From contig NZ_AP025461.1 in NCBI RefSeq assembly GCF_024347315.1, forward strand, positions 868,001 to 932,000: a stretch of 64,000 nucleotides of DNA, written 5' to 3'. Below are positions 655 through 11,079 of this stretch, one piece after another; within the stretch, counting starts at the first letter, position 1, and each line of letters begins with the position of its first letter. Made by a program: the position numbers and the translations under genes. Source of the stretch: Vibrio atlanticus (GTDB taxonomy: Bacteria; Pseudomonadota; Gammaproteobacteria; Enterobacterales; Vibrionaceae). The notes under the pieces are model-generated. The model worked only from the letters and a program-made list of their open reading frames with translations, was not told the DNA's origin and did no database searches.

Positions 655-717
655 TACCTTAAATCTCTGAATAGCGTGTAAAAAAATAGCCAGCAGAGGC
701 TGGCTATTTTTAGAAAG
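655..717. repeat. Left 63-bp direct repeat (attL-like), copy of a csp terminator
   Basis: This 63-bp segment is repeated at 5997-6059 with one mismatch (T at 677 versus G at 6019). Both copies contain the same hairpin, a 9-bp stem ATAGCCAGC/GCTGGCTAT with A-tract and T-tract flanks, which is the terminator of the cold-shock gene next to the right copy. The repeats bound about 5.3 kb containing a tyrosine recombinase and integron cassettes. They are read as attL/attR of an integrated island; the island boundary at base 717/718 is inferred from where identity stops. Confidence 0.8.
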
Positions 718-1070
718 ATGTTTACCACTCTGTTCGCTTCTGTTTTTTACGAATCGAAACAGTGCTCAGTGTGACTTTAGCGGCATTTATTCTGGCTGTG
801 ATTGCTGTGAGCTTAATTCTCAAATATTGCTTAGAGAGCTAAAATATTGAAAATTAAATGCAGCGTCTAACACATGTCTAATATTCAAAGGCTTAGCATC
901 ATATCCACCACAGTAATGGCGTGTTATAGTTCTTAGCGGTTTGCAGTTTATCGCAGGTAGTCATATACAATACCGATCTTAAACTGCGGCTATAGTTTGT
1001 TATGCGATGACTTCGTTACTAGGGTAATACGCTTTAATGTGCGCTTTAGTCTCTTTAAGGAGACTGGGTT
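718..1070. other. Gene-free left end of the island
   Basis: About 350 bases without a convincing gene. The only structure noted is at 1048-1065: an inverted repeat AGTCTC/GAGACT whose right arm and loop contain the AAGGAG ribosome-binding site (1057-1062) of the next gene, so the site could be partly hidden in a 6-bp hairpin. No promoter was assigned with confidence. Confidence 0.4.
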
Positions 1071-1655
1071 GTGAGTTTGTGGAGACAGGCTATTGCTAAG
1101 TCCATTTTCTGTTGGAATGATAAAACCATGAGAAACAATTGGTTAAGTGAATCTCATCACGTCATCGGTGACGATGTCACAGAGATTTCGAATGTTAAGT
1201 CTGTAAAAGCCACTTCTAAAATAGGCGATATGTGTGCTGTACCTGTATACAACGTTTATGCTTCCTGTGGGTTTGGTGCTCAAAACGATACCGAGTACCA
1301 ACTTAGAACCGAATTCCTACCTTGCTTATGGTTAAAACGTTTCGGCCTGACAGAAGAAGATGCTCGTATCATCATTTGCCACGGCGACTCAATGGAAGAC
1401 ACTTTAAGCGACGGCGATGAAGTATTAGTCGATACCCGAGAACTCGATCACCCAGTAAAGCACGGTGTCTATGTTGTTCGCATTGGTAAGCACGTTTACA
1501 TAAAACGCCTGAAGTACGACATCATGGCTGAGGGCTATAACGTCATCTCAGACAACAAAGAAGAATATGATTCGTTTATCGTGAATGAGGAGAAACTCAA
1601 CGAGTTCGCGGTAATCGGGAAAGTTATTACCACCGTCATGAAGGCGGTGATTTAG
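1071..1655 (+). CDS. S24/LexA-like self-cleaving peptidase without HTH domain
   Basis: The 194-residue protein carries the LexA/UmuD/CI peptidase fold. A candidate cleavage bond is Cys66-Gly67 in YASCGFGA (UmuD-like), with catalytic Ser107 in HGDSMEDT and Lys145 in VYIKRL; the spacings (41 and 38 residues) fit the S24 family. Residues 1-55 do not look like a helix-turn-helix, so this is either a UmuD-like protein or a repressor that lost its DNA-binding part. The start is GTG with AAGGAG 8 bases upstream. It lies alone at the left end of the repeat-bounded island and is followed directly by a strong terminator. No umuC follows, so a polymerase accessory role is unsupported. By family, self-cleavage would be stimulated by RecA. 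Confidence 0.8.
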   Translation: MSLWRQAIAKSIFCWNDKTMRNNWLSESHHVIGDDVTEISNVKSVKATSKIGDMCAVPVYNVYASCGFGAQNDTEYQLRTEFLPCLWLKRFGLTEEDARIIICHGDSMEDTLSDGDEVLVDTRELDHPVKHGVYVVRIGKHVYIKRLKYDIMAEGYNVISDNKEEYDSFIVNEEKLNEFAVIGKVITTVMKAVI

Positions 1656-1662
1656 AAAAGCG

Positions 1663-1690
1663 AAGGCGACCTCAGGGTCGCCTTTTTTAT
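1663..1690 (+). terminator. Rho-independent terminator after the S24 gene
   Basis: A GC-rich hairpin AGGCGACC-tca-GGGTCGCCT is followed directly by a T-run, 8 bases after the stop codon at 1655. Confidence 0.85.
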
Positions 1691-1979
1691 TGTTGAAATT
1701 GACAATAGTGGATATCACAACGCTGGCTTGTTTTGTTGAGTGCTTAGTCTTGTTTTGTCGATAAAGGATTTAGTCAGTCATTGTTTATCAATGGGTTTGT
1801 GATGATCATATGTTAGATAACACGCTGGCGCGTTTTTATGTGATGATAGAATACAAACTTGATATATTTACCTTAATTTTCAGTATTTTATGATGGGTTA
1901 ATTAAGATTTAGACAGGTGGAGAAGCGAAATTGCCTGCTATTAAGAATGTTACACCCCAATGAATTTGAGTTTTAGCAT
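1691..1979. other. AT-rich spacer, no gene seen
   Basis: No gene or convincing attC site was found here. The stretch is AT-rich and presumably holds the promoter of the DUF2971 gene; a weak inverted pair around 1818-1836 (AACACGCTGGCGCG) was not assigned. Confidence 0.3.
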
Positions 1980-3413
1980 ATGAAGAAAGAATTTTACAGG
2001 TTCAGACGCATCAATAGCTTGATCGGTGAATTTAAAGAATTAGAAAATCAAAGCATATATTTTGCAGAACCTGATTCATTGAATGATCCTATGGAAGGTT
2101 TTCGAGATATGTACTGGGCAGGTGACTTCATAGTATGGAGAAACCTATTTCAACATTATTTATTATGCCTTGAGAGGCTTTGTTATTTGTTGTTAATCTC
2201 AGGCGAAGATCTCCCTATATCCGCAACTGATATGCCGGTTTTTTCTGGTGACGATGATTTTCCAACGCCAATGTATAAAGAGTTATTCTCCAGTATTACA
2301 AACAAATTTTTTGATAATGAAAGCTTAGCTAAACTTATTGTTTCGATTTCTAAACGAACAACCCCAGTAAGAAGAGATGAGTTGTTTTTCTATCTTCGAA
2401 ATACCCATAGTTATGCATTGGAAGTCATTTATTCAGAATATGAGAAAAATGGCCTTATTCCAGAAAGAGACTGGAAAAATTCTGAAGCAGATAAACCAAT
2501 TATTGACCTGTTAAAAAAAGACTTTATAGGTATTCTAGAAAAAAACTTGAATGAACATGAAGGTGACGAAAAAATAGTAAATGCCATGTTTTCAGCCCAT
2601 CAGCATTGTAACCAGCAAATGGACCTTATATCTCGATATAATGGAAATATCGACAATGATAAAAAGAATAGAAATCTGGTAATTATTGAGTTTCCTAAAG
2701 AATATGTTTCACAAATTGAAAAATTAGTTTTTCCTGACTGGTATACAGCATGCTTTATGTCTGAGTGTAAGAGCTCTTCAGTATGGGGACATTATGGTGA
2801 TAACCACTCTGGTGCATGCTTAATTTTTAATGCCGATGTAATTAATGATGAATCCTTTCTTAAGCTAAAGGGGCGGAATGGTTACAGCTCAAAATCTGGC
2901 CCTACTTATGGGTTTAATAACAGAATGTTTTATCCTATAGATTACATTCAAGGTTATGGTCAAATAGACTTCTTTCGTATGCTTGGTCGTCTTCCTGTTC
3001 CGAAGTTGAATTCAGTATGGTACTCGTTAGATGGCGAGATGAGTGAATGCGCAGATGATATGATTAAATCTGAAGATGATTGGCGTAAAAGATACTGGAA
3101 AAACTTCTATAGAGATGTCACTGTTAAATCGAAAGATTGGGCGTACGAAAACGAATACCGCCTGATTCTCGCTAGCTCATTAGATAGTTTCTCTGACCCT
3201 AAAGACAGATCATTAAATTATGAGTTTTCTTCTCTTAAAGGCATTATTTTTGGTATTAAAACGACAACCGAAGATAAATTAGAAGTAGTAAAAATAATTG
3301 AAGAAAAATGTAGAGAAACAGATAGAGGTGACTTTAAGTTTTATCAGGCGCAGTACTCGTCGGATAAAAAGTGTATAACACACTCTGAAATGAGCTTGCT
3401 TAGCTTCACTTAA
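1980..3413 (+). CDS. DUF2971 domain protein
   Basis: The 477-residue protein has the DUF2971 hallmarks in order. Near residue 30 is the motif IYFAEPDSLNDPMEG, in the middle is SVWGHYGDNHSGACLIFN, and towards the C-terminus is KSKDWAYENEYRLI. DUF2971 proteins are cytoplasmic, of unknown reaction, and frequent in mobile islands and integron cassettes. This one is longer than many relatives because of an insertion between about residues 50 and 230, rich in charged helical sequence. Its stop is followed within 10 bases by a compact attC-like palindrome, as expected for a gene cassette. The ribosome-binding site is weak. A role in phage defence or stress is possible from context only. Confidence 0.75.
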   Translation: MKKEFYRFRRINSLIGEFKELENQSIYFAEPDSLNDPMEGFRDMYWAGDFIVWRNLFQHYLLCLERLCYLLLISGEDLPISATDMPVFSGDDDFPTPMYKELFSSITNKFFDNESLAKLIVSISKRTTPVRRDELFFYLRNTHSYALEVIYSEYEKNGLIPERDWKNSEADKPIIDLLKKDFIGILEKNLNEHEGDEKIVNAMFSAHQHCNQQMDLISRYNGNIDNDKKNRNLVIIEFPKEYVSQIEKLVFPDWYTACFMSECKSSSVWGHYGDNHSGACLIFNADVINDESFLKLKGRNGYSSKSGPTYGFNNRMFYPIDYIQGYGQIDFFRMLGRLPVPKLNSVWYSLDGEMSECADDMIKSEDDWRKRYWKNFYRDVTVKSKDWAYENEYRLILASSLDSFSDPKDRSLNYEFSSLKGIIFGIKTTTEDKLEVVKIIEEKCRETDRGDFKFYQAQYSSDKKCITHSEMSLLSFT

Positions 3414-3419
3414 GATGCG

Positions 3420-3512
3420 TAACAAGTTGCTTAAATGGAAAAATAACAATAGGCCATCGCTTCGTGATTATAGCCAACGGTTATTTGTCCACTTAACCGG
3501 CTGTTTTGTACT
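3420..3512 (+). repeat. Compact attC-like integron recombination site
   Basis: The outer arms of this roughly 90-bp segment are imperfectly complementary over about 30 bases: left arm TTGCTTAAATGG and AAATAACAATAGG, right arm CCAACGGTTATTT and CCACTTAACCGG. It begins with TAACAAG right after the DUF2971 stop and ends just before the next gene's ribosome-binding site, as an attC between two cassettes should. It differs in length and sequence from the Vibrio-type attC at 3944-4062. Inferred by eye; folding of the bottom strand would test it. Confidence 0.6.
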
Positions 3513-3522
3513 TGGAGGAAAA

Positions 3523-3945
3523 ATGTACGAATTTTCAAAAATGGTGAGAGAAGTCTTCTTAGAAAATAAGGAAAATATTGATCTGCCTTTTTTCTACAGC
3601 TTTCCCAAAAATAGCTGTGAAAGCGCTTCATATTTCTTGGCTGCACTGCTGGCTCAAAAATTCCCAGATAAAGAGTTCTTGGTTGTTCATGGTTACAAAC
3701 ACTCATCTGATGAACATCATTACTGGGTTGAAGTAGATGGCCGAGTGATAGACATTACCGCAGATCAATTTAATAAAGTACGCGAACCTATTTATGGAGC
3801 AGATACTCATCCTCTTGAAGGTAAATTTGTTCCAGATTCTAAAATAGAAACCATACTAGGTATCAAGCGGTTTGAATTAGTCGAGTTGGAGCGCAAGAAA
3901 GCGGTGTGGGGACATATCTCTGCACTGATTGCACAACGTACATAG
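3523..3945 (+). CDS. Cassette protein, transglutaminase-like Cys-His-Asp fold
   Basis: The best start is the ATG at 3523, preceded by GGAGG with 5-base spacing; an upstream in-frame start would place translation inside the attC site. The 140-residue product has Cys32 (NSCESAS), His65/His66 (DEHHYWVEVDG) and Asp77 (VIDITADQF), in the order and context of the papain/transglutaminase-like fold. This is the same Cys-His-Asp layout seen in transglutaminase-like proteins such as lasso-peptide leader peptidases. No signal peptide is visible. It is the sole gene between two attC sites, so it is an integron cassette. Catalytic activity and substrate are inferred and unknown; it could be a protease, amidase or toxin. 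Confidence 0.7.
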   Translation: MYEFSKMVREVFLENKENIDLPFFYSFPKNSCESASYFLAALLAQKFPDKEFLVVHGYKHSSDEHHYWVEVDGRVIDITADQFNKVREPIYGADTHPLEGKFVPDSKIETILGIKRFELVELERKKAVWGHISALIAQRT

Positions 3946-4062
3946 CAAACTGTTCAAGAGGGATTCGCGATATGTGGCATTCTTACTATGCGTTGGTTGT
4001 TGTGGTTAAGTTGATTTGCGGCGGCTTTGGTATTGCGTTGCTCACACCTTAAAAGGGCTATG
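3944..4062 (+). repeat. Vibrio-type attC (VCR-like) site
   Basis: The segment starts CATAGCAAACTGTTCAAGAG just after the cassette stop and ends CACACCTTAAAAGGGCTATG. This layout (AAACTGTTCAAGAGGGATTCGC, then TGGCATTC, GCGTTG, GGTTAAG, and a CCTTAA-AGGGC end) is that of the roughly 120-bp attC repeats in Vibrio superintegrons. The terminal boxes CATAGC and GCTATG are complementary but diverge from the usual GTTRRRY consensus, so it may recombine poorly. No integron integrase lies in the window. Confidence 0.8.
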
Positions 4063-4087
4063 CAGCACAAGTTTAAAAGGGTTTAGT

Positions 4088-5146
4088 ATGTCTAAAAAAG
4101 ATATGTTTGAAAGGTTAGTTGAGAATGCGTTCGATTTCTTAGATATGTCTGTCTCAGATATAGAGCAGCGCCCAAAATATTCAATTATTCACTTTCATGC
4201 AGCGTTGGAGCTAATTTTAAAAGCTAGGTTAATGCATGAGCATTGGACATTAGTCATATCTGACAATCAGAAACCGGACTGGAACAAGTTCGTTTCCGGG
4301 AATTTTCAATCAGTTTCCTTGTCAACCGCTACTGATCGTCTTGATAAGGTCGTACAAAGCGGGCTCACAAAGCAAGAGTTGCAAGCATTTAAAGATGTTA
4401 CTAACCATAGAAACAAGGTAGTACATTTTTTCCATGAAGCACACAGTGATATTGATAATAAAAAGAATGTTCAGGAAATAGTTAAACAGCAATTATCTGC
4501 TTGGCAATTTTTACACAATTTAATTGGTACTAGATGGAGACCAGTGTTTTCCGGATGGGAAAGTAAGCTGGCTATTATTGACTGGAAGCTACGATCATTA
4601 AATAGCTATCTGCAAGTTGTTTATGACCAGAAGAAAGAGCAAATAGAAATACTTAAAAAGAAAGGTGAAAAAGTCCGGACTTGCTCGTCATGTGGTTTTG
4701 AGTCTATGCGCCAAACTAAAGCAGGTTGTTTAGTTGAGGAGAGCACTTGTTTAGTCTGTCGGCATGAAGAGAAATGTTTAACGGTTGCGTGTTCTAACTG
4801 TGGTAAGGATGTAACGTTTATTAATGAGGGTTTTGGAAGTTGCCTAAGTTGCGATAAACAGTATGAACCTAGCGACCTTCTAGATATTTTAGGGGATGAA
4901 GGGGCTTCATATATGGCGGCAAAGGAAGGCGATAACTCTTGGGACCTTGGTCATTGTAGCTTTTGTGAGGGTTATGAAACAGTAGTGAGAACAGAAGCGG
5001 ATGAATTTGTATGCACTAGCTGCTTTACCGTTACTGAGTGTATGGAGCAATGCGGTTGGTGCAATTCTCTAAACAATGGCGATTTGGAATTTAGTTTCGC
5101 TAAAGGGTGTGTCGCGTGTGATGGTCGAGTAGGTTGGGGCGACTAG
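4088..5146 (+). CDS. HEPN-like RxxxxH protein with four zinc ribbons (cassette)
   Basis: The ATG at 4088 is preferred because the upstream in-frame extension to 4016 translates attC DNA. The 352-residue product has an N-terminal all-helical domain (about 1-190) containing R108-N-K-V-V-H113. This fits the RxxxxH motif of HEPN RNase toxins and follows a conserved-looking helix YSIIHFHAALELILKARL. From residue 199 come eight CxxC pairs (199/202, 221/224, 235/238, 252/255, 290/293, 309/312, 322/325, 341/344), enough for four zinc ribbons. No signal peptide or membrane segment is seen. It lies between a full attC and a truncated one. RNA cleavage, with the ribbons as a nucleic-acid sensor, is an inference; no antitoxin-like partner gene is adjacent. 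Confidence 0.75.
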   Translation: MSKKDMFERLVENAFDFLDMSVSDIEQRPKYSIIHFHAALELILKARLMHEHWTLVISDNQKPDWNKFVSGNFQSVSLSTATDRLDKVVQSGLTKQELQAFKDVTNHRNKVVHFFHEAHSDIDNKKNVQEIVKQQLSAWQFLHNLIGTRWRPVFSGWESKLAIIDWKLRSLNSYLQVVYDQKKEQIEILKKKGEKVRTCSSCGFESMRQTKAGCLVEESTCLVCRHEEKCLTVACSNCGKDVTFINEGFGSCLSCDKQYEPSDLLDILGDEGASYMAAKEGDNSWDLGHCSFCEGYETVVRTEADEFVCTSCFTVTECMEQCGWCNSLNNGDLEFSFAKGCVACDGRVGWGD

Positions 5147-5152
5147 CTCCAT

Positions 5153-5197
5153 ACAAAGCGTCTAAGAGGAATTCCTAACGCTCGGCATTTTCAGTTT
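5153..5197 (+). repeat. Truncated attC (5' half)
   Basis: ACAAAGCGTCTAAGAGGAATTCC followed by AACGCTCGGCATTTTC is the 5' half of a Vibrio-type attC, placed 6 bases after the cassette stop. The 3' half (GGTTAAG, CCTTAA and terminal box) is absent, so the array was broken here. The remaining DNA to 5371 is AT-rich with no gene seen. Confidence 0.65.
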
Positions 5198-5371
5198 GAT
5201 TCAGCTAATCAGTTATATCCTAATTTAGCAATATAACTGACAAGTTTTTGTATAGGAACTTTGATAGGTTTAATAGCTTTTGTTCACCGTTGGGAAGGGA
5301 TTCTATTTGTGAGCACAAACAGGTCCCTTCGAGTCAATCTGTTTATATTCACTACAAACCATTAATCGCTT

Positions 5372-5996
5372 TTATATTTTACGGTCATGCAATTTATGTG
5401 GGAACAGCTGGGTATAAACCTGCCACAAGGTATTTAGGTTCCTATGCCCAGTTACTTGTGCAACTTCCTCAATCGTAAAGCCTTTCTCGAACAAACGGCT
5501 TGCACCTTCACGGCGTAGGTCATGATAGCGCAGGTTATCAATCCCAACCTTTTGACACACTTCAACGAAGCCTCGGCCAACTGAGCGTGGGTTATATGGA
5601 AATATCAACTCACCTTTACGCTCTTGCCTCATTACAATATCAAATGCTTCACCAAGCAGAGGAACTACCATATGGTTGCCTTCTTTCTTACGTGGGTCTT
5701 TTCGGTCACGTACGATCACTGTTCTAAGTTCTTCGTTTAAGTCTTCCCAGCGAATACCACAGACTTCGCTGACTCTCATACAGCTCAGGATGCTGAAGTC
5801 TAGAAGCACGGAGTAGGGGATTTTGTTTTCTCTGCGTTGCTCACGTTCTTCTAGTGCTTCTTTCAACAGGTCTATTTCATCGGTTGTAGGGCGTCTTGTT
5901 CGTTTCTCTGATTTACCGATGAGCTTCATTTCATACAGGATGGGTGTTGCTTCTAAGAATGTGTTCACGTTCGCGAAAACGTTGAATAGAACTAAC
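5372..5996 (-). pseudogene. Tyrosine recombinase, N-terminally truncated
   Basis: The 198-residue catalytic domain (GTG start at 5968 if translated) retains Arg65 (CMRVSEVCG), Lys about 90 (RDRKDPRKK), His149 and Arg152 (YHDLRREG), His175 (VTGHRNLNT) and nucleophile Tyr185 (VYTQLF). The whole catalytic set is therefore present. The reading frame continues upstream for nine more integrase-like codons and then hits a TAG at the first base of the right 63-bp repeat (5996/5997). The core-binding N-terminal domain of roughly 100 or more residues is missing. The breakpoint coincides with the island edge, so the gene was cut when the repeat-bounded structure formed. It is not an IntI-type integron integrase by eye. 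Probably inactive on its own. Confidence 0.8.
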
Positions 5997-6059
5997 TACC
6001 TTAAATCTCTGAATAGCGGGTAAAAAAATAGCCAGCAGAGGCTGGCTATTTTTAGAAAG
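5997..6059. repeat. Right 63-bp direct repeat (attR-like)
   Basis: This is the second copy of the repeat at 655-717 (62 of 63 identical). It contains the native terminator of the adjacent cold-shock gene, so the original target was most likely the 3' side of that gene and the left copy was created on insertion. Identity ends at 5996/5997 on the island side. Confidence 0.8.
6022..6053 (-). terminator. Bidirectional terminator of the cold-shock gene
   Basis: A 9-bp perfect stem ATAGCCAGC/GCTGGCTAT with a 4-base loop has A-tracts on one side and T-tracts on the other, so it can terminate from both strands. An identical hairpin sits at 680-711. Confidence 0.85.
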
Positions 6060-6074
6060 CTTTAAAATACTAAA

Positions 6075-6284
6075 TTAAAGTACTTTGATGCTGTCAGCTT
6101 GTGGGCCTTTTTGACCTTGAGATACAGTGAACTCAACTTGTTGGCCTTCAGCAAGAGTTTTGAAACCATCGCCTGTGATTGCAGAGAAGTGTGCAAATAC
6201 GTCTGGGCCGTTTTCTTGCTCGATGAAGCCGAAGCCTTTAGTTTCGTTGAACCATTTTACTTTACCAGTAACTGTGTTAGACAT
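6075..6284 (-). CDS. CspA-family cold-shock protein
   Basis: The 69-residue single cold-shock domain contains RNP1 (KGFGFIEQ) and RNP2 (DVFAHFSAI) and ends [13 protein letters not shown], the standard length and layout of CspA-type RNA chaperones. The start ATG has AGGA about 8 bases upstream. The terminator follows within 25 bases. The gene is complete and its 3' side served as the insertion target of the island. Which paralogue it is (cold-induced or constitutive) cannot be told from sequence alone. Confidence 0.95.
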
Positions 6285-6732
6285 GATGATATCCTAAAAT
6301 TAAATTTTTATTTTGAGCCAATTGTGGCACTGATAGCGCGGAAAAGTTTATTGCTATTGCGTACAACACAACGGGGTTACTAGTAATCCAACGAAATGTT
6401 TATATACAAAGAACTTTCTTTCTAGCCGAGATGAAGTCTAAATCAAATTAGGGGATAGTCAATCGAATCCATAGTGAAAGGTTGCAGAAACTTGGGGGTA
6501 GTCAAACTTTGCATTCCTTAAATATCATGGAGTTACAGTTGTATGGTGATTTGTTGTAGTTTTTGTGAAAAAGGTGGTCGAAATTGATGACGAATTTGGA
6601 GTAATTGCACTGTTTTGGCACATTTATTTTCCAAATTATTAAGCCGCTAATTGGTGCCTGGCCCCAATTTTAACGGCTTATATTTATAAATCTCACGGTA
6701 AGCATCATGTGTCTATTGGAACGAGCTTTTGA
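6285..6732. other. Intergenic region with imperfect hairpin
   Basis: This region between two minus-strand genes is the promoter and 5' leader of the cold-shock gene. Such genes often have a long leader, but no cold-box was recognised. At 6641-6679 an imperfect inverted repeat AAGCCGCTAATTGG / CCAATTTTAACGGCTT lies downstream of the sugar dehydrogenase stop and may end its transcript, although a T-run is lacking. Confidence 0.4.
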
Positions 6733-7818
6733 CTACTTTTTCAAGCGATACAGGTTGCCATTATCGGTACTGAAAAAGATGTCGCCGCTTGGTGAAGTTT
6801 CAATGTCTCTTATCCTCTCGCCTAAATCTTCTAAAATACGTTCCTCTTTAATTGTTTCACCTTGTCCATTGACTGTCACAATATTGATGTGGGTAAGTTT
6901 AAGCGCGCCGGCCAGCAGCTTTCCTTTCAACTCTGGGTATTTGTCACCTTGGTAAACAATCAAGCTGCCCGGAGCGATTGAAGGAACGTAGACTTTTTTA
7001 GGCGCTTCAATGCCATCCTTAGTTTCAGACTCGCCTACGCTAATTGGGCCCCAATACTCTTTTCCGTGTGATGTGACAGGCCACCCGTAGTTGGCACCTG
7101 CTTTAATTAGGTTGATTTCGTCACCACCTCGCGGGCCGTGTTCAATCGACCACAGCTTCTGGGTCGGGAAGTCGTAATACAAGCCTTGTGGATTACGATG
7201 GCCATAGCTCCAAATCTCATTGAGTACCTTGCTGTTATCCGAGAACGGGTTATCGCTTGGTGTGCTTCCATCAGCATTCAATCGTAATATTGATCCGGCG
7301 TGAGTCATGGTGTCTTGGCCGTTGTCTCGATCACCACGGTCGCCGATTGAAAAATACAGGTGGCTATCATCAAAGGTGATACGGCTACCAAAGTGACGTC
7401 CGGTGTCCGTTCTGGATTTAGATACAAACACGTCTGTCCAATTGGTAACTTCATGATTGCTGTAATTAGCAGAAGCCAGTGTCGTTACGCCTTCACCATC
7501 GACGTCTTTACTGTAAGTGACGTAGAACTTTCCGATTTCAAAAGGGGAGAGCGCGATATCCAACAGACCACCTTGGCCTTTCGCCCAAACATTGGGCAGC
7601 CTGAACAGCGTGCTTTGCTCACCCGTCTTTAAATCAACCTGTTTAATGACGCCAGCTTTTTCTGTTACTAGCATGGAGTTATCGTTGATATAAGCCAACC
7701 CCCAAGGGATCACGAGTCCGTCGGTGATCTTCTCTACTTGCCATGCAAAAGCAGAGGATATTGGACTCGATGCGATGAGTGCCAAAGCACAGGAAATAAG
7801 ACGATGATGATTGTTCAT
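6733..7818 (-). CDS. PQQ-dependent aldose sugar dehydrogenase (YliI-like)
   Basis: The 361-residue protein starts with a Sec signal peptide (cleavage expected near SSAFA-WQ) followed by a glucose/sorbosone dehydrogenase beta-propeller. Visible family motifs include WGLAYINDNSMLVTEK, RHFGSRITFDD, GDRGDRDNGQ, YGHRNPQGLYYD and HGPRGGDEINLI. Family members oxidise aldoses in the periplasm with PQQ as bound cofactor and pass electrons to the respiratory chain. No PQQ synthesis genes are in the window, so the cofactor would have to come from elsewhere or be scavenged. It stands alone on its strand. Substrate cannot be deduced. Confidence 0.88.
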   Translation of the reverse strand: MNNHHRLISCALALIASSPISSAFAWQVEKITDGLVIPWGLAYINDNSMLVTEKAGVIKQVDLKTGEQSTLFRLPNVWAKGQGGLLDIALSPFEIGKFYVTYSKDVDGEGVTTLASANYSNHEVTNWTDVFVSKSRTDTGRHFGSRITFDDSHLYFSIGDRGDRDNGQDTMTHAGSILRLNADGSTPSDNPFSDNSKVLNEIWSYGHRNPQGLYYDFPTQKLWSIEHGPRGGDEINLIKAGANYGWPVTSHGKEYWGPISVGESETKDGIEAPKKVYVPSIAPGSLIVYQGDKYPELKGKLLAGALKLTHINIVTVNGQGETIKEERILEDLGERIRDIETSPSGDIFFSTDNGNLYRLKK

Positions 7819-7990
7819 GGGAGTCCTTTGTTTTCATGACGTGGTATTAGTTTAGCTTGTGGTCGACAGGTGCAAAGGTTGGGTTACTGAAAAGTGACTA
7901 TTCATTTATTTAGTTCAACCAGTGTTGTATGAGTAAGCAAGCTCACGTATGTTTAGCCTGCCATTCTCTATTCGATTCCTTCGGAGCATA

Positions 7991-8119
7991 ATGAATACTA
8001 CCCTTGCAACATCTTCGCTGTTTTCTCTGTCTGTATGTTGTCAGGTTGATACTCAAGCTATCTATTCTCAAACCACCCGATCTCAAAACAGCTGTTATAT
8101 TGGATACTTTACATCATGA
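7991..8119 (+). CDS. 42-codon leader ORF overlapping the MFS gene
   Basis: An ATG at 7991 has GGAG five bases upstream and opens a 42-codon frame. Its TGA stop overlaps the ATG of the downstream exporter (ATGA at 8116-8119). The exporter itself has no visible ribosome-binding site (TACTTTACATC precedes its ATG), so its translation likely depends on ribosomes finishing this leader. The peptide is Ser/Thr/Cys-rich and hydrophilic, begins MNTTLATSSLFSLSVCC, and resembles no family I know. It could be a regulatory leader peptide that senses translation inhibition or a metabolite; that is inference. Confidence 0.55.
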   Translation: MNTTLATSSLFSLSVCCQVDTQAIYSQTTRSQNSCYIGYFTS

Positions 8120-9309
8120 GTCGTCGATTTGACTTTAAATCGATCCTACTTGCGTGTTTGGTCATCAGCATCGGCCAACTCAGTATGGGGCTGGTATTTC
8201 CATCATTACCATGGATCGCGAAAGACTTTGATGTTTCGCTAGAGCAAGCTCAGCTTCTGGTGAGTGTCTATTTGTTAGGTTTTGGACCTTCTCAGTTTAT
8301 CTATGGCCCAATTTCCGATGCTCTAGGGCGTAAGAAGGTGCTGTTAAGTGGTTTGTTGATTGCGATGCTTGGCCTCTTGATGATCATCTTCTTTAGCCAT
8401 TCATTTACTAGCATGGTGATGGGACGTTTTCTGCAAGGCTTAGGAACGGGTTGTTGCGCTGTACTTGCTCGTGCTTCCACGCGGGATAGATTCAGTGGGG
8501 CAGATTTACCTTTAGCTATGTCCTACATTGCGATGGTCGCGTCTATTACACCTTTGATTGCGCCCGTAATCGGCGGCTTTATTAACTTCCATTTTGGCTG
8601 GAGCATGGTGTTCATCTCGCTACTTGGCTATGTCTCATTAGCTTGGATGGTTTTGGCGTTCAAGTTTAAGGAAACCGTCACTCAGATCTCCGCTATTCCT
8701 TCGCCAAATAAAATGGTTTCTCAATACAAAGAGTTGCTAACTTCTCGCTATTTTATGAGTTTTGCGAGTATTGGCTGGCTTAACTTTAGTTTGATGATCA
8801 CTACCGTATCAGTGATGCCATTTATTATGCAAAACCAGATTGGCATGACGTCTGATGAATACGCGATGTGGGCGGTGATTCCTGCTTTAGGCATGCTGGG
8901 TGGAACAAGTTTATGTAACCGTATTCGCCCCATGTTGGGCAACAAGAAAACTCTGTTATGTACCCCTGTATTGCATATCTCTGCGGCGTTGTGGCTTTTC
9001 TTTTGCCCACTTGAGCCTTTGTATCTCATGCTTGGCCAGTTCTTGATGATTCTTGGCAATGGTATTGCGTTGCCTTGTGCTCAGGCGTTGGTGATGTTGC
9101 CTTATAAGAAGAACGCTGGCGCGGCTGCTGCGATGTCTGGCGGCGGGCAGATGGTGGTGTCTTCAATGGTGAGTATGGGGCTAGTTCAACTAGGGCTAGG
9201 AGAAGCGTGGCATTTATCGCTTGTCATCATGTTGTTCACTATTATTACTCTGATTAATATTTTACGTGGTTTCAGTAGTCAAGAAGCGAGAGAGTCGCAG
9301 CTGAGCTAA
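8116..9309 (+). CDS. MFS drug/siderophore exporter (Bcr/CflA-type)
   Basis: The 397-residue protein shows about twelve hydrophobic segments and the MFS motif A GPISDALGRKKVL between helices 2 and 3 (residue about 65). RFLQGLGTGCCAVLARA in helix 4 and ITPLIAPVIGGF in helix 5 are both typical of the DHA1 Bcr/CflA/EmrD group. Such proteins expel drugs, amino-acid derivatives or siderophores by proton antiport across the inner membrane. Translation appears coupled to an upstream 42-codon ORF. It lies next to, but divergent in function from, the siderophore operon at 9459-11079 on the other strand, so export of a siderophore is possible but unproven. Confidence 0.85.
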   Translation: MSRRFDFKSILLACLVISIGQLSMGLVFPSLPWIAKDFDVSLEQAQLLVSVYLLGFGPSQFIYGPISDALGRKKVLLSGLLIAMLGLLMIIFFSHSFTSMVMGRFLQGLGTGCCAVLARASTRDRFSGADLPLAMSYIAMVASITPLIAPVIGGFINFHFGWSMVFISLLGYVSLAWMVLAFKFKETVTQISAIPSPNKMVSQYKELLTSRYFMSFASIGWLNFSLMITTVSVMPFIMQNQIGMTSDEYAMWAVIPALGMLGGTSLCNRIRPMLGNKKTLLCTPVLHISAALWLFFCPLEPLYLMLGQFLMILGNGIALPCAQALVMLPYKKNAGAAAAMSGGGQMVVSSMVSMGLVQLGLGEAWHLSLVIMLFTIITLINILRGFSSQEARESQLS

Positions 9310-9354
9310 TTAGTTAATTAGTTATTTAATTATTTAGCTAGCGAGTGAAAAACG

Positions 9355-9394
9355 AAAAGGCCATTAAAGTTCTGAGACTTCAATGGCCTTCTTT
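9355..9394. terminator. Bidirectional terminator between convergent genes
   Basis: The stem AAGGCCATT/AATGGCCTT, with an inner AAGT/ACTT pairing and A/T flanks, separates the MFS gene from the convergent fhuC. Confidence 0.8.
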
Positions 9395-9396
9395 AT

Positions 9397-9438
9397 GCTT
9401 AGAGCTTAGAGCTTAGAGCTTAGAGCTTAGAGCTTAGA
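9397..9438. repeat. Six tandem copies of a 7-bp unit
   Basis: GCTTAGA is repeated six times without interruption between the convergent terminator and the fhuC stop. It is non-coding; the copy number is likely to vary between strains by slippage. Confidence 0.9.
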
Positions 9439-9458
9439 CTTAAGCTGAAATACCCGAA

Positions 9459-10244
9459 CTATTCACAGACGACTGCAACCTTCTCACTTGCTGCTGTCTT
9501 AGCTGGAACTGGATGATCGATCAGTCGAATCGGAGACTCATACAAAGCTGATAGCGCTTGTTCATCAAGTAACTTATCCGCACTGCCTTCAAAAGCAATC
9601 TGACCTTTTTTCAGTGCAACGATGTGTGTCGCGTAACGCAGTGCTAAATTCAAATCGTGCAAAATGACGATCACCCCAACATTTTCCGTTTTGTTGAGTT
9701 CAGACAGTAAACCCATAAGCTGAAACTGATGATGCACATCCAGTGCCGAAGTTGGTTCATCAAGGATTAGTACTGGTGATTGTTGAGCCAACAACATCGA
9801 TACCCACGCGCGTTGACGTTCTCCTCCAGATAAATCATCCGCCAAGGCTTGCGAGAATTCAGTGACACCGGTTCTTTCCATCGCCTGTTGGATAATCGAC
9901 TTATCTTCTGAATTCCAACGGCCTAGCGCGCCTCTCCATGGAAAACGTCCTAAACGAACCAACTCTTCTACGGTTAAGCCAGCAGAAGCGGGGAGCTTTT
10001 GCGGTAAATAAGCAATTTTTTTCGCTAAATCTTTGCTTTTGAATGAAGAGAGGGAAGTGCCGTCTAGTTCCACGCTGCCGTGATCCGGCGACATCTGCCC
10101 AGAGAGCAAATTAACGAGTGTAGATTTACCCGAACCATTATGGCCAAGAACGACTGTCAGTTCATTGGTCGGAATCGCGAGGTCTTCGATTGAGAGAATG
10201 GTTCGTTCATCACGAATAACTTTGATGTTTGAAAGCTGAAACAT
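9459..10244 (-). CDS. fhuC: Ferric-siderophore ABC transporter ATPase (FhuC-like)
   Basis: The 261-residue ATPase has Walker A GHNGSGKST (residues 34-42), signature LSGGERQR (about 139), Walker B VLILDEPTSALD (about 155) and the H-loop in VILHDLNLALRYA. This is the pattern of FhuC/FecE/BtuD-type importers. It should power the FhuB permease encoded at 15642-17636 from the cytoplasmic face. It follows the ferric-siderophore reductase on the same strand after 76 bases, so the two are probably one Fur-controlled transcript. The split between fhuC here and fhuDB on the opposite strand is slightly unusual but they are parts of one cluster. Confidence 0.9.
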   Translation of the reverse strand: MFQLSNIKVIRDERTILSIEDLAIPTNELTVVLGHNGSGKSTLVNLLSGQMSPDHGSVELDGTSLSSFKSKDLAKKIAYLPQKLPASAGLTVEELVRLGRFPWRGALGRWNSEDKSIIQQAMERTGVTEFSQALADDLSGGERQRAWVSMLLAQQSPVLILDEPTSALDVHHQFQLMGLLSELNKTENVGVIVILHDLNLALRYATHIVALKKGQIAFEGSADKLLDEQALSALYESPIRLIDHPVPAKTAASEKVAVVCE

Positions 10245-10320
10245 GTCAGTCCTGTAATTAGGTCAGTAGCGAAGCTCAATGGAGAAGGCTCGTCGTATTG
10301 AACTTTAATAAATGGCGTGA

Positions 10321-11079
10321 CTAAGCGATTTTTTTGTTGTCTGGATGCCTAGGGCAATTATCACAGTACTTTCTTGAATCGCACTTATAAACCAGGCAGC
10401 AGCTGATTCTGATCAGTTTTAACATCCTCGAACTAGAGTCCACTTTAAGGCTGTCTAAATGATTTTCAGACAACTGGCATGCTTCTAACCAAAGCTTAGC
10501 TTGCGCAATAATGTAATCGTTGGTCAGGCTTGGTTCGTGTTGCTGAAGTTTTATCAAACTGCCTAACAATAGATCGGCCAATAAATGATTGGTAAATCCT
10601 GGGCGAATACGTGTCCATTCACTGATCTGGCTTCGATAAAACTCAGTCAGTGCAAGAATGGCTTCACCAGCATCGGGAATCAGCTCTTCTGGTGAACCAT
10701 GTTGATGATCACCATTAAAGAAGCGGTAGCCAGTAATGAACTCTTTGTATCTAAATTGACCGATATTCTTGATGTCGGGCAATGAATGAAGCCCATAGAT
10801 AGAAATGAAAGTCACATAGATAGGCTGCCAACACACGAGATCCCAGGTTCGCGTTAACCAATACGCTTTGCCTGCTTCTGGGTGGCTTTGCGAAAGACCA
10901 TCGTAAACTCGTTTGAGCTCTTTATGGCTATTCTCATTTGTTACCGCAATGCTCTTGTTATTATGTGCACCAAAGCTTCCGCTTAAATAAGGGCTCACTT
11001 GTTTTGAGTAAGCGAAGATTTTTTGATGTAGAGACGGGGCTTTCCGACGAGTGATAATATTGTGCAGTTGGGGAAGCAT
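10321..11079 (-). CDS. Siderophore ferric-iron reductase (FhuF-like)
   Basis: The 252-residue protein ends in CC-x10-C-x2-C (CCLVYKCDSRKYCDNC), the [2Fe-2S] ligand pattern of FhuF-type ferric-siderophore reductases. The body resembles the AHA_1954-like group of such reductases. The enzyme would reduce Fe(III) bound to the imported hydroxamate siderophore in the cytoplasm and release Fe(II). It heads a minus-strand operon with fhuC, and a candidate Fur box lies directly upstream at 11091-11111. No membrane segments are seen. The assignment rests mainly on the Cys pattern and the neighbourhood. Confidence 0.85.
   Translation of the reverse strand: MLPQLHNIITRRKAPSLHQKIFAYSKQVSPYLSGSFGAHNNKSIAVTNENSHKELKRVYDGLSQSHPEAGKAYWLTRTWDLVCWQPIYVTFISIYGLHSLPDIKNIGQFRYKEFITGYRFFNGDHQHGSPEELIPDAGEAILALTEFYRSQISEWTRIRPGFTNHLLADLLLGSLIKLQQHEPSLTNDYIIAQAKLWLEACQLSENHLDSLKVDSSSRMLKLIRISCCLVYKCDSRKYCDNCPRHPDNKKIA

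Follow-up and report, generated by a model that had tools for sequence, protein, structure and literature searches.

A HEC-08 family protein combining a HEPN-like domain with eight CxxC pairs on a degenerate integron cassette of Vibrio atlanticus

RESULTS

The island between yaeQ and csp

The window, a 64,000-nucleotide stretch of the Vibrio atlanticus genome, carries between yaeQ and csp a 5.3-kb island (655-6059) bounded by 63-bp direct repeats (Table 1). A same-genus search covered 148 genomes, and the yaeQ-csp site was compared in the 25 best-matching loci. In 20 of these 25 the site is empty, i.e., yaeQ and csp are joined with one repeat copy, and in five, our own included, it is occupied; the other four occupied sites hold different DNA. 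Two relatives (L112 and L114) encode at the same site a recombinase of 371 aa, as against 198 aa in the window, and this reduction suggests that the island is probably immobile. The S24-type regulator has a longer counterpart of 276-296 aa in L112 and L114, whose islands are filled differently; the DNA identity is 94-95% over about 1166-1691. The true start of the YunG-like ORF is possibly a later ATG near 3523. The DUF2971/PDC-S31 protein gives the island another defence candidate besides HEC-08.

Table 1. Features of the island (positions in the window)
Feature	Position	Strand	Remarks
Left copy of 63-bp direct repeat	655..717	+	island boundary
S24-type regulator	1071..1655	+	
DUF2971 protein	1980..3413	+	Pfam E 6.7e-8; PADLOC PDC-S31 E 1.9e-22
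YunG-like ORF of preceding cassette	3415..3945	+	Pfam YunG E 1.1e-4, below cut-off
attC 5' of gene	3940..4058	+	degenerate; end substitutions relative to RE88 copies
HEC-08 family protein	4088..5146	+	352 aa: HEPN-like (DUF3644-type) N-domain and Cys-rich C-terminal half
HEPN-like domain, about residues 1-160	4088..4567	+	PADLOC DUF3644, Pfam DUF3644, DUF4145 profile comparison
E41, invariant acidic residue	4208..4210	+	probably in helix 2; K45 likewise invariant
R108-NKVV-H113, putative HEPN catalytic motif	4409..4426	+	invariant R, N, H
Zinc site 1: CxxC 199/202 and 221/224	4682..4759	+	putative pairing, from order
Zinc site 2: CxxC 235/238 and 252/255	4790..4852	+	putative pairing; weak ribbon profile matches
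Zinc site 3: CxxC 290/293 and 309/312	4955..5023	+	putative pairing
Zinc site 4: CxxC 322/325 and 341/344	5051..5119	+	putative pairing
Left part of 3' attC	5153..5195	+	right part missing; ends at about 5195
Tyrosine recombinase, 198 aa	5372..5968	-	N-terminal part missing
Right copy of 63-bp direct repeat	5997..6059	+	62/63 identical; beside csp; island boundary

The ORF at 4088-5146 (+) is intact, its 352 aa being read without a stop. The longer frame that opens with TTG at 4016 is not needed, because the start Met of the 4088 frame is also that of an 80% homologue (P0002). Both features for which the initial annotation had singled out this gene, R108-N-K-V-V-H113 and eight CxxC pairs, are read in the ORF, and the pairs begin at residues 199, 221, 235, 252, 290, 309, 322, and 341. 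When residues 1-160 were shuffled 10,000 times, an RxxxxH motif arose in 33% of cases; the motif by itself thus says little, and it is conservation that decides. With the C-terminal half shuffled 5,000 times, the number of CxxC pairs averaged 2.1 and reached at most 8, compared with the 8 seen. The protein additionally holds a second RxxxxH, R47-LMHE-H52, which was absent from that annotation.

Cassette origin

HEC-08 genes are mobile as integron cassettes. The gene in the window had been described as cassette-borne, and attC sequence does flank it, though both attC sites in the window are damaged. The sequence at 3940-4058 shares 76-84% identity with four long attC copies of Vibrio sp. RE88 (L002), and a fifth copy there is 70% identical. 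The 5' site of the window is also 78-81% identical to two single attC copies elsewhere in its own genome, which encodes a complete-length integron integrase (C1:2127040). In RE88, an 81% homologue stands between attC sites at 5850-5975 and 7063-7200, and this 13-kb locus gave 18 merged matches to attC probes, some of them partial. Among other Vibrionaceae, attC-like sequence lies before the gene in L048 and L049 and also after it in L049; these probes, which are blind to other types of attC, detected none beside the gene in L042, L050, and L051. Two papers from 2025 reportedly describe defence genes in integron cassettes.

The bottom strand of the 5' attC of the window gave a folding z of +1.90, and three other attC copies were also weak (0.44, -1.06, and -1.87). 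A z of -2.27 was reached around the 3' remnant, owing mainly to a hairpin that lies beyond the remnant itself. Since known attC copies score weakly too, hairpin folding does not discriminate here. Before the YunG-like gene, the sequence at 3405-3525 resembles another attC type by eye (GCGTAACAAGTTGCTTAAAT...CTTAACCGG), with a folding z of -0.89, which is not significant.

Family assignment

The protein is a further member of an already catalogued candidate antiviral family, HEC-08. The PADLOC profile HEC-08 (PDLC04162) matches it over its full length (residues 4-350 against positions 13-355 of 358 in the model; E 5.8e-92) and is matched by all 40 rows of our first alignment, the window included. 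The initial annotation had known no named system of this layout, and this claim does not stand: PADLOC-DB names HEC-08, and the available text of the HEPN survey (PMC3710099) lists EC042_2821 HEPN-ZnR fusions. Its reading of the sequence was good; its claim of novelty was not. HEC stands for Hma-embedded candidate according to the accessible part of PMC12111858. Antiviral activity has been shown for several HECs, HEC-06 among them (PMC12988326, in excerpt), and a bioleaching consortium is enriched in defence genes that include HEC-08 (PMC13407799, in excerpt). We recognised no study of HEC-08 function in the literature searched on HEC-08, DUF3644, PDC-S64/S31/S19, and anti-phage HEPN with zinc ribbon, a coverage outside which the HEC source preprint lies.

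Conservation among relatives

A sequence search gave 192 relatives at E up to 1e-3, 120 of them listed, and a profile search gave 702, likewise with 120 listed. Alignment A1 has 40 rows, the window protein and 39 of the 120 relatives listed by the sequence search. A wider alignment of 24 rows joins the window to 23 loci at 27-81% identity, with L033 and L034 as near-duplicates. E41, K45, R108, N109, and H113 are invariant in A1 (40/40, window included), and all 24 divergent rows keep E41, K45, E51, W53, S75, R108, N109, H113, and F114. Conservation of RxxxxH among homologues had been named beforehand as a point on which the HEPN reading could fail, and R108 and H113 are invariant in 40/40 and 24/24 rows. 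The second motif is also kept, with R47 present in 40/40 rows of A1 and 22/24 of the wider set, and H52 in at least 90% of A1; the catalytic pair may therefore be either of the two.

The cysteines are conserved to a similar extent. In A1, all CxxC cysteines are invariant but C309 (at least 90%), and in the divergent set every one of the 16 occurs in 22-24 of 24 rows. The wider set counts eight CxxC pairs in 20 rows, nine in L046, seven in L052, six in L038, and two in L037. Between the window gene and its RE88 homologue, dN is 0.11 against a saturated dS of 3.3 (NG86), which indicates purifying selection.

The N-terminal domain and the zinc-ribbon half

The N-terminal domain of the window protein is probably a HEPN domain, as judged from sequence comparison. 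The HEPN-like character proposed for it agrees with the invariant motif in both alignments and with weak profile similarity to other HEPN families. The PADLOC DUF3644 profile matches residues 2-154 (E 4.5e-54), and Pfam DUF3644 matches residues 26-118 with an E of 1.2e-4 that falls short of its cut-off. At E up to 0.1, 21/40 A1 members match Pfam DUF3644 and 7/40 match HEPN PF05168 (best 0.033), and PADLOC CARF_HEPN PDLC01800 is matched by 4/40 at 0.01 (best E 7.8e-4). The accessible text of the 2013 HEPN survey (PMC3710099) counts both DUF3644 and DUF4145 among the HEPN families.

We compared an N-domain profile, built from A1 and the homologues of the 23 loci, with 23 DUF4145 segments from 30 DUF4145 loci; 24 of the 30 loci were used first, and L072, cut too short, was then dropped. 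The comparison scored 21.5, compared with a maximum of 15.6 for 100 column-permuted templates, a lenient control because permutation breaks helix periodicity too, and 11.2 for the reversed template. The alignment places E41, K45, N109, and H113 on Glu, Lys, Asn, and His, and R108 on Gly, and the hhalign probability is low (4-5%). Owing to the placement of R108 on Gly, we rate both the HEPN assignment and our best explanation of the protein lower. No HEPN entry was met in the PDB among 23 matches up to E 10 to the A1 profile, or among three matches up to E 10 in the single-protein sequence search. A search with PF18739 (ApeA) returned two loci only. The NCBIfam match PRK07326 (E 0.0079, far below cut-off) was dismissed as a chance match.

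The zinc-ribbon character attributed to the C-terminal half is borne out by Pfam, with 15/40 A1 members matching DZR_2 and 8/40 matching Zn_Ribbon_TF at E up to 0.1. In a PDB profile search, residues 219-262 weakly resemble the zinc ribbons of eS27 (E 0.018) and RPB12 (E 0.12).

Distribution of relatives

The distribution of the HEC-08 family is patchy. Counting our own genome each time, carriers of a full-length homologue number 6 among 329 family genomes, 3 among 369 class genomes, one of which has it with an in-frame stop, and 3 among 398 phylum genomes; the other four matches in these searches are short and weak. A single-sequence scan of genome contigs gave one locus only. The named phage collection held no match at E 1e-5, and IMG/VR yielded ten loci with a homologue, which are putatively viral. 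Plasmids gave 197 matching records, 110 of which cover at least 80% of the query.

This distribution bears on the view that the protein is a non-catalytic or housekeeping regulator, whose HEPN-like domain would bind RNA while its ribbons bring in a partner, either nucleic acid or protein. Some relatives are named predicted RNA-binding Zn-ribbon protein or HsdR in their source, and the RNase activity of the family is putative, both of which suit such a role. The strict invariance of R108, N109, and H113 argues against it, and occurrence in 6/329 family genomes is unlike a housekeeping gene, so that we consider a regulator quite unlikely.

Gene neighbourhoods

The gene apparently forms a one-gene unit, in line with the single-gene layout first proposed for it. 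Among ORFs of at least 60 aa within five genes on each side, the 24 loci show no adjacent partner that recurs (E 1e-5); smaller partners would escape this search. Setting aside the duplicates L033 and L034, the genes that do recur within five genes are a tyrosine recombinase (window, L029, L032, and L035) and an S24-like regulator (window and L031). An ORF of no assigned family lies four or five genes off in L037, L047, and L052 (23-36% identity).

The absence of a recurring partner weighs on the possibility that the protein is a toxin with a separate or unlinked antitoxin gene, which would stabilise cassettes or plasmids and have no anti-phage role. HEPN domains do occur as toxins of toxin-antitoxin systems, as the accessible text of PMC3710099 has it, and two of the four plasmid relatives that we opened lie near toxin-antitoxin genes: the one on a Vibrio nigripulchritudo plasmid near HipA and VapBC, and the one on a Leptospira plasmid near HepT-like and nucleotidyltransferase genes, with AbiJ-NTD4 also in the vicinity. 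Of the other two, one adjoins a recombinase and a HEPN/Toprim gene, and one has a recombinase about 3 kb away. No conserved antitoxin gene of at least 60 aa adjoins it in the 24 loci, however, and the RE88 homologue has an attC site on either side. We regard such a toxin as unlikely.

The defence context of relatives is frequent but not universal. Neighbouring defence systems are present in some relatives. In L046 (G153; 34% identity), the homologue (5781-6818) lies between HmaA (6818-10342) and HmaB pieces (4587-5780 and 2902-4788); in L047 (G216), it stands directly before gajA-gajB (Gabija); and in L031, it is followed by a small ORF and then by an R-M methylase and specificity gene. There were 115 neighbour ORFs within three genes (L034, L037, L038, and the window left out), and 20 hand-picked ORFs were scanned. 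Hand-picked neighbours matched PADLOC in 8/10 cases at 1e-5 (two of them pieces of one HmaB) and in 4/10 at 1e-10, rates that apply to hand-picked ORFs and come without a background control. The HEC-08 cassette of Vibrio sp. RE88 is directly preceded by an ORF (L002:4913-5842) for a DUF4238-Pers protein (PADLOC E 6.4e-103).

Such neighbours could mean that the protein is an accessory subunit of Hma, Gabija, or R-M systems and not a stand-alone effector. The homologue ORF touches or overlaps the hmaA/hmaB ORFs in L046, and gajA adjoins it in L047, as might be expected of a subunit. The neighbouring system nevertheless differs among L046, L047, and L031, and neighbours do not recur across the 24 loci; a subunit role is very unlikely in our judgement.

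DISCUSSION

HEC-08 is best explained as a single-gene, probably antiviral RNase that is held and triggered by its zinc-ribbon half and acts by abortive infection, a reading to which we give a probability of roughly 0.58. The N-terminal HEPN domain, with E41, K45, R108, N109, and H113, would cut RNA, probably as a dimer; both the RNase chemistry and the dimer are carried over by analogy from the HEPN superfamily. The four-site zinc-ribbon half may keep the HEPN domain inactive and detect a sign of infection, such as phage RNA, DNA, or protein. Once released, the HEPN domain would cleave RNA of both host and phage, with tRNA or mRNA as the probable targets, and this cleavage would arrest growth before phage is made. 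Sensing or restraint by the ribbons is putative, as is abortive infection as the outcome. Family membership, the conserved motif and cysteines, the lack of a recurring neighbour of at least 60 aa next to the gene, the defence systems beside some relatives, and mobility as a cassette are the observations on which this proposal builds.

The same proposal can be taken further, toward a self-contained sensor and executioner. Four tandem zinc ribbons would directly recognise either a product of the phage or aberrant RNA and thereby free the built-in HEPN RNase, making the protein a one-polypeptide receptor that works without antitoxin, nucleotide signal, or guide RNA and has spread as integron cassettes among vibrios. 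We put this extended form forward tentatively, as a possibility that we would not bet on.

Our analysis supplies the anatomy of a catalogued candidate, namely a near-invariant catalytic motif and eight CxxC pairs across the 40-row and 24-row alignments, together with the settings of HEC-08 genes on an integron cassette, an island, and plasmids. One gene without a recurring partner offers a clean test of a zinc-ribbon array controlling a HEPN RNase, and how the zinc array and the HEPN domain cooperate is a real, testable question.

Comparison with known systems

The integron cassette HEPN protein of PDB 3jrt, named in the accessible text of PMC3710099, parallels the window protein, a probable HEPN protein, in being found on integron cassettes; it differs in being absent from the 23 PDB sequences that match the A1 profile up to E 10. 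Two further PADLOC profiles, PDC-S64 (PDLC05059) and PDC-S19 (PDLC04954), are matched by 38/40 and 19/40 A1 members, respectively, at E up to 0.01, both much more weakly than HEC-08. The DUF3644/EC042_2821 HEPN families share the type of N-terminal domain, going by what is available of PMC3710099. That text describes EC042_2821 as having a conserved motif, as fused to wHTH, REase, and ZnR domains, and as overlapping DUF3644. Our likening to EC042_2821 follows this partial description only, and unlike those fusions the window protein has no wHTH or REase match in Pfam. The closest counterpart is HEC-08 itself, with a full-length profile match and one relative embedded between hmaA and hmaB, whereas the window copy lies outside any Hma locus, on a damaged integron cassette inside an island.
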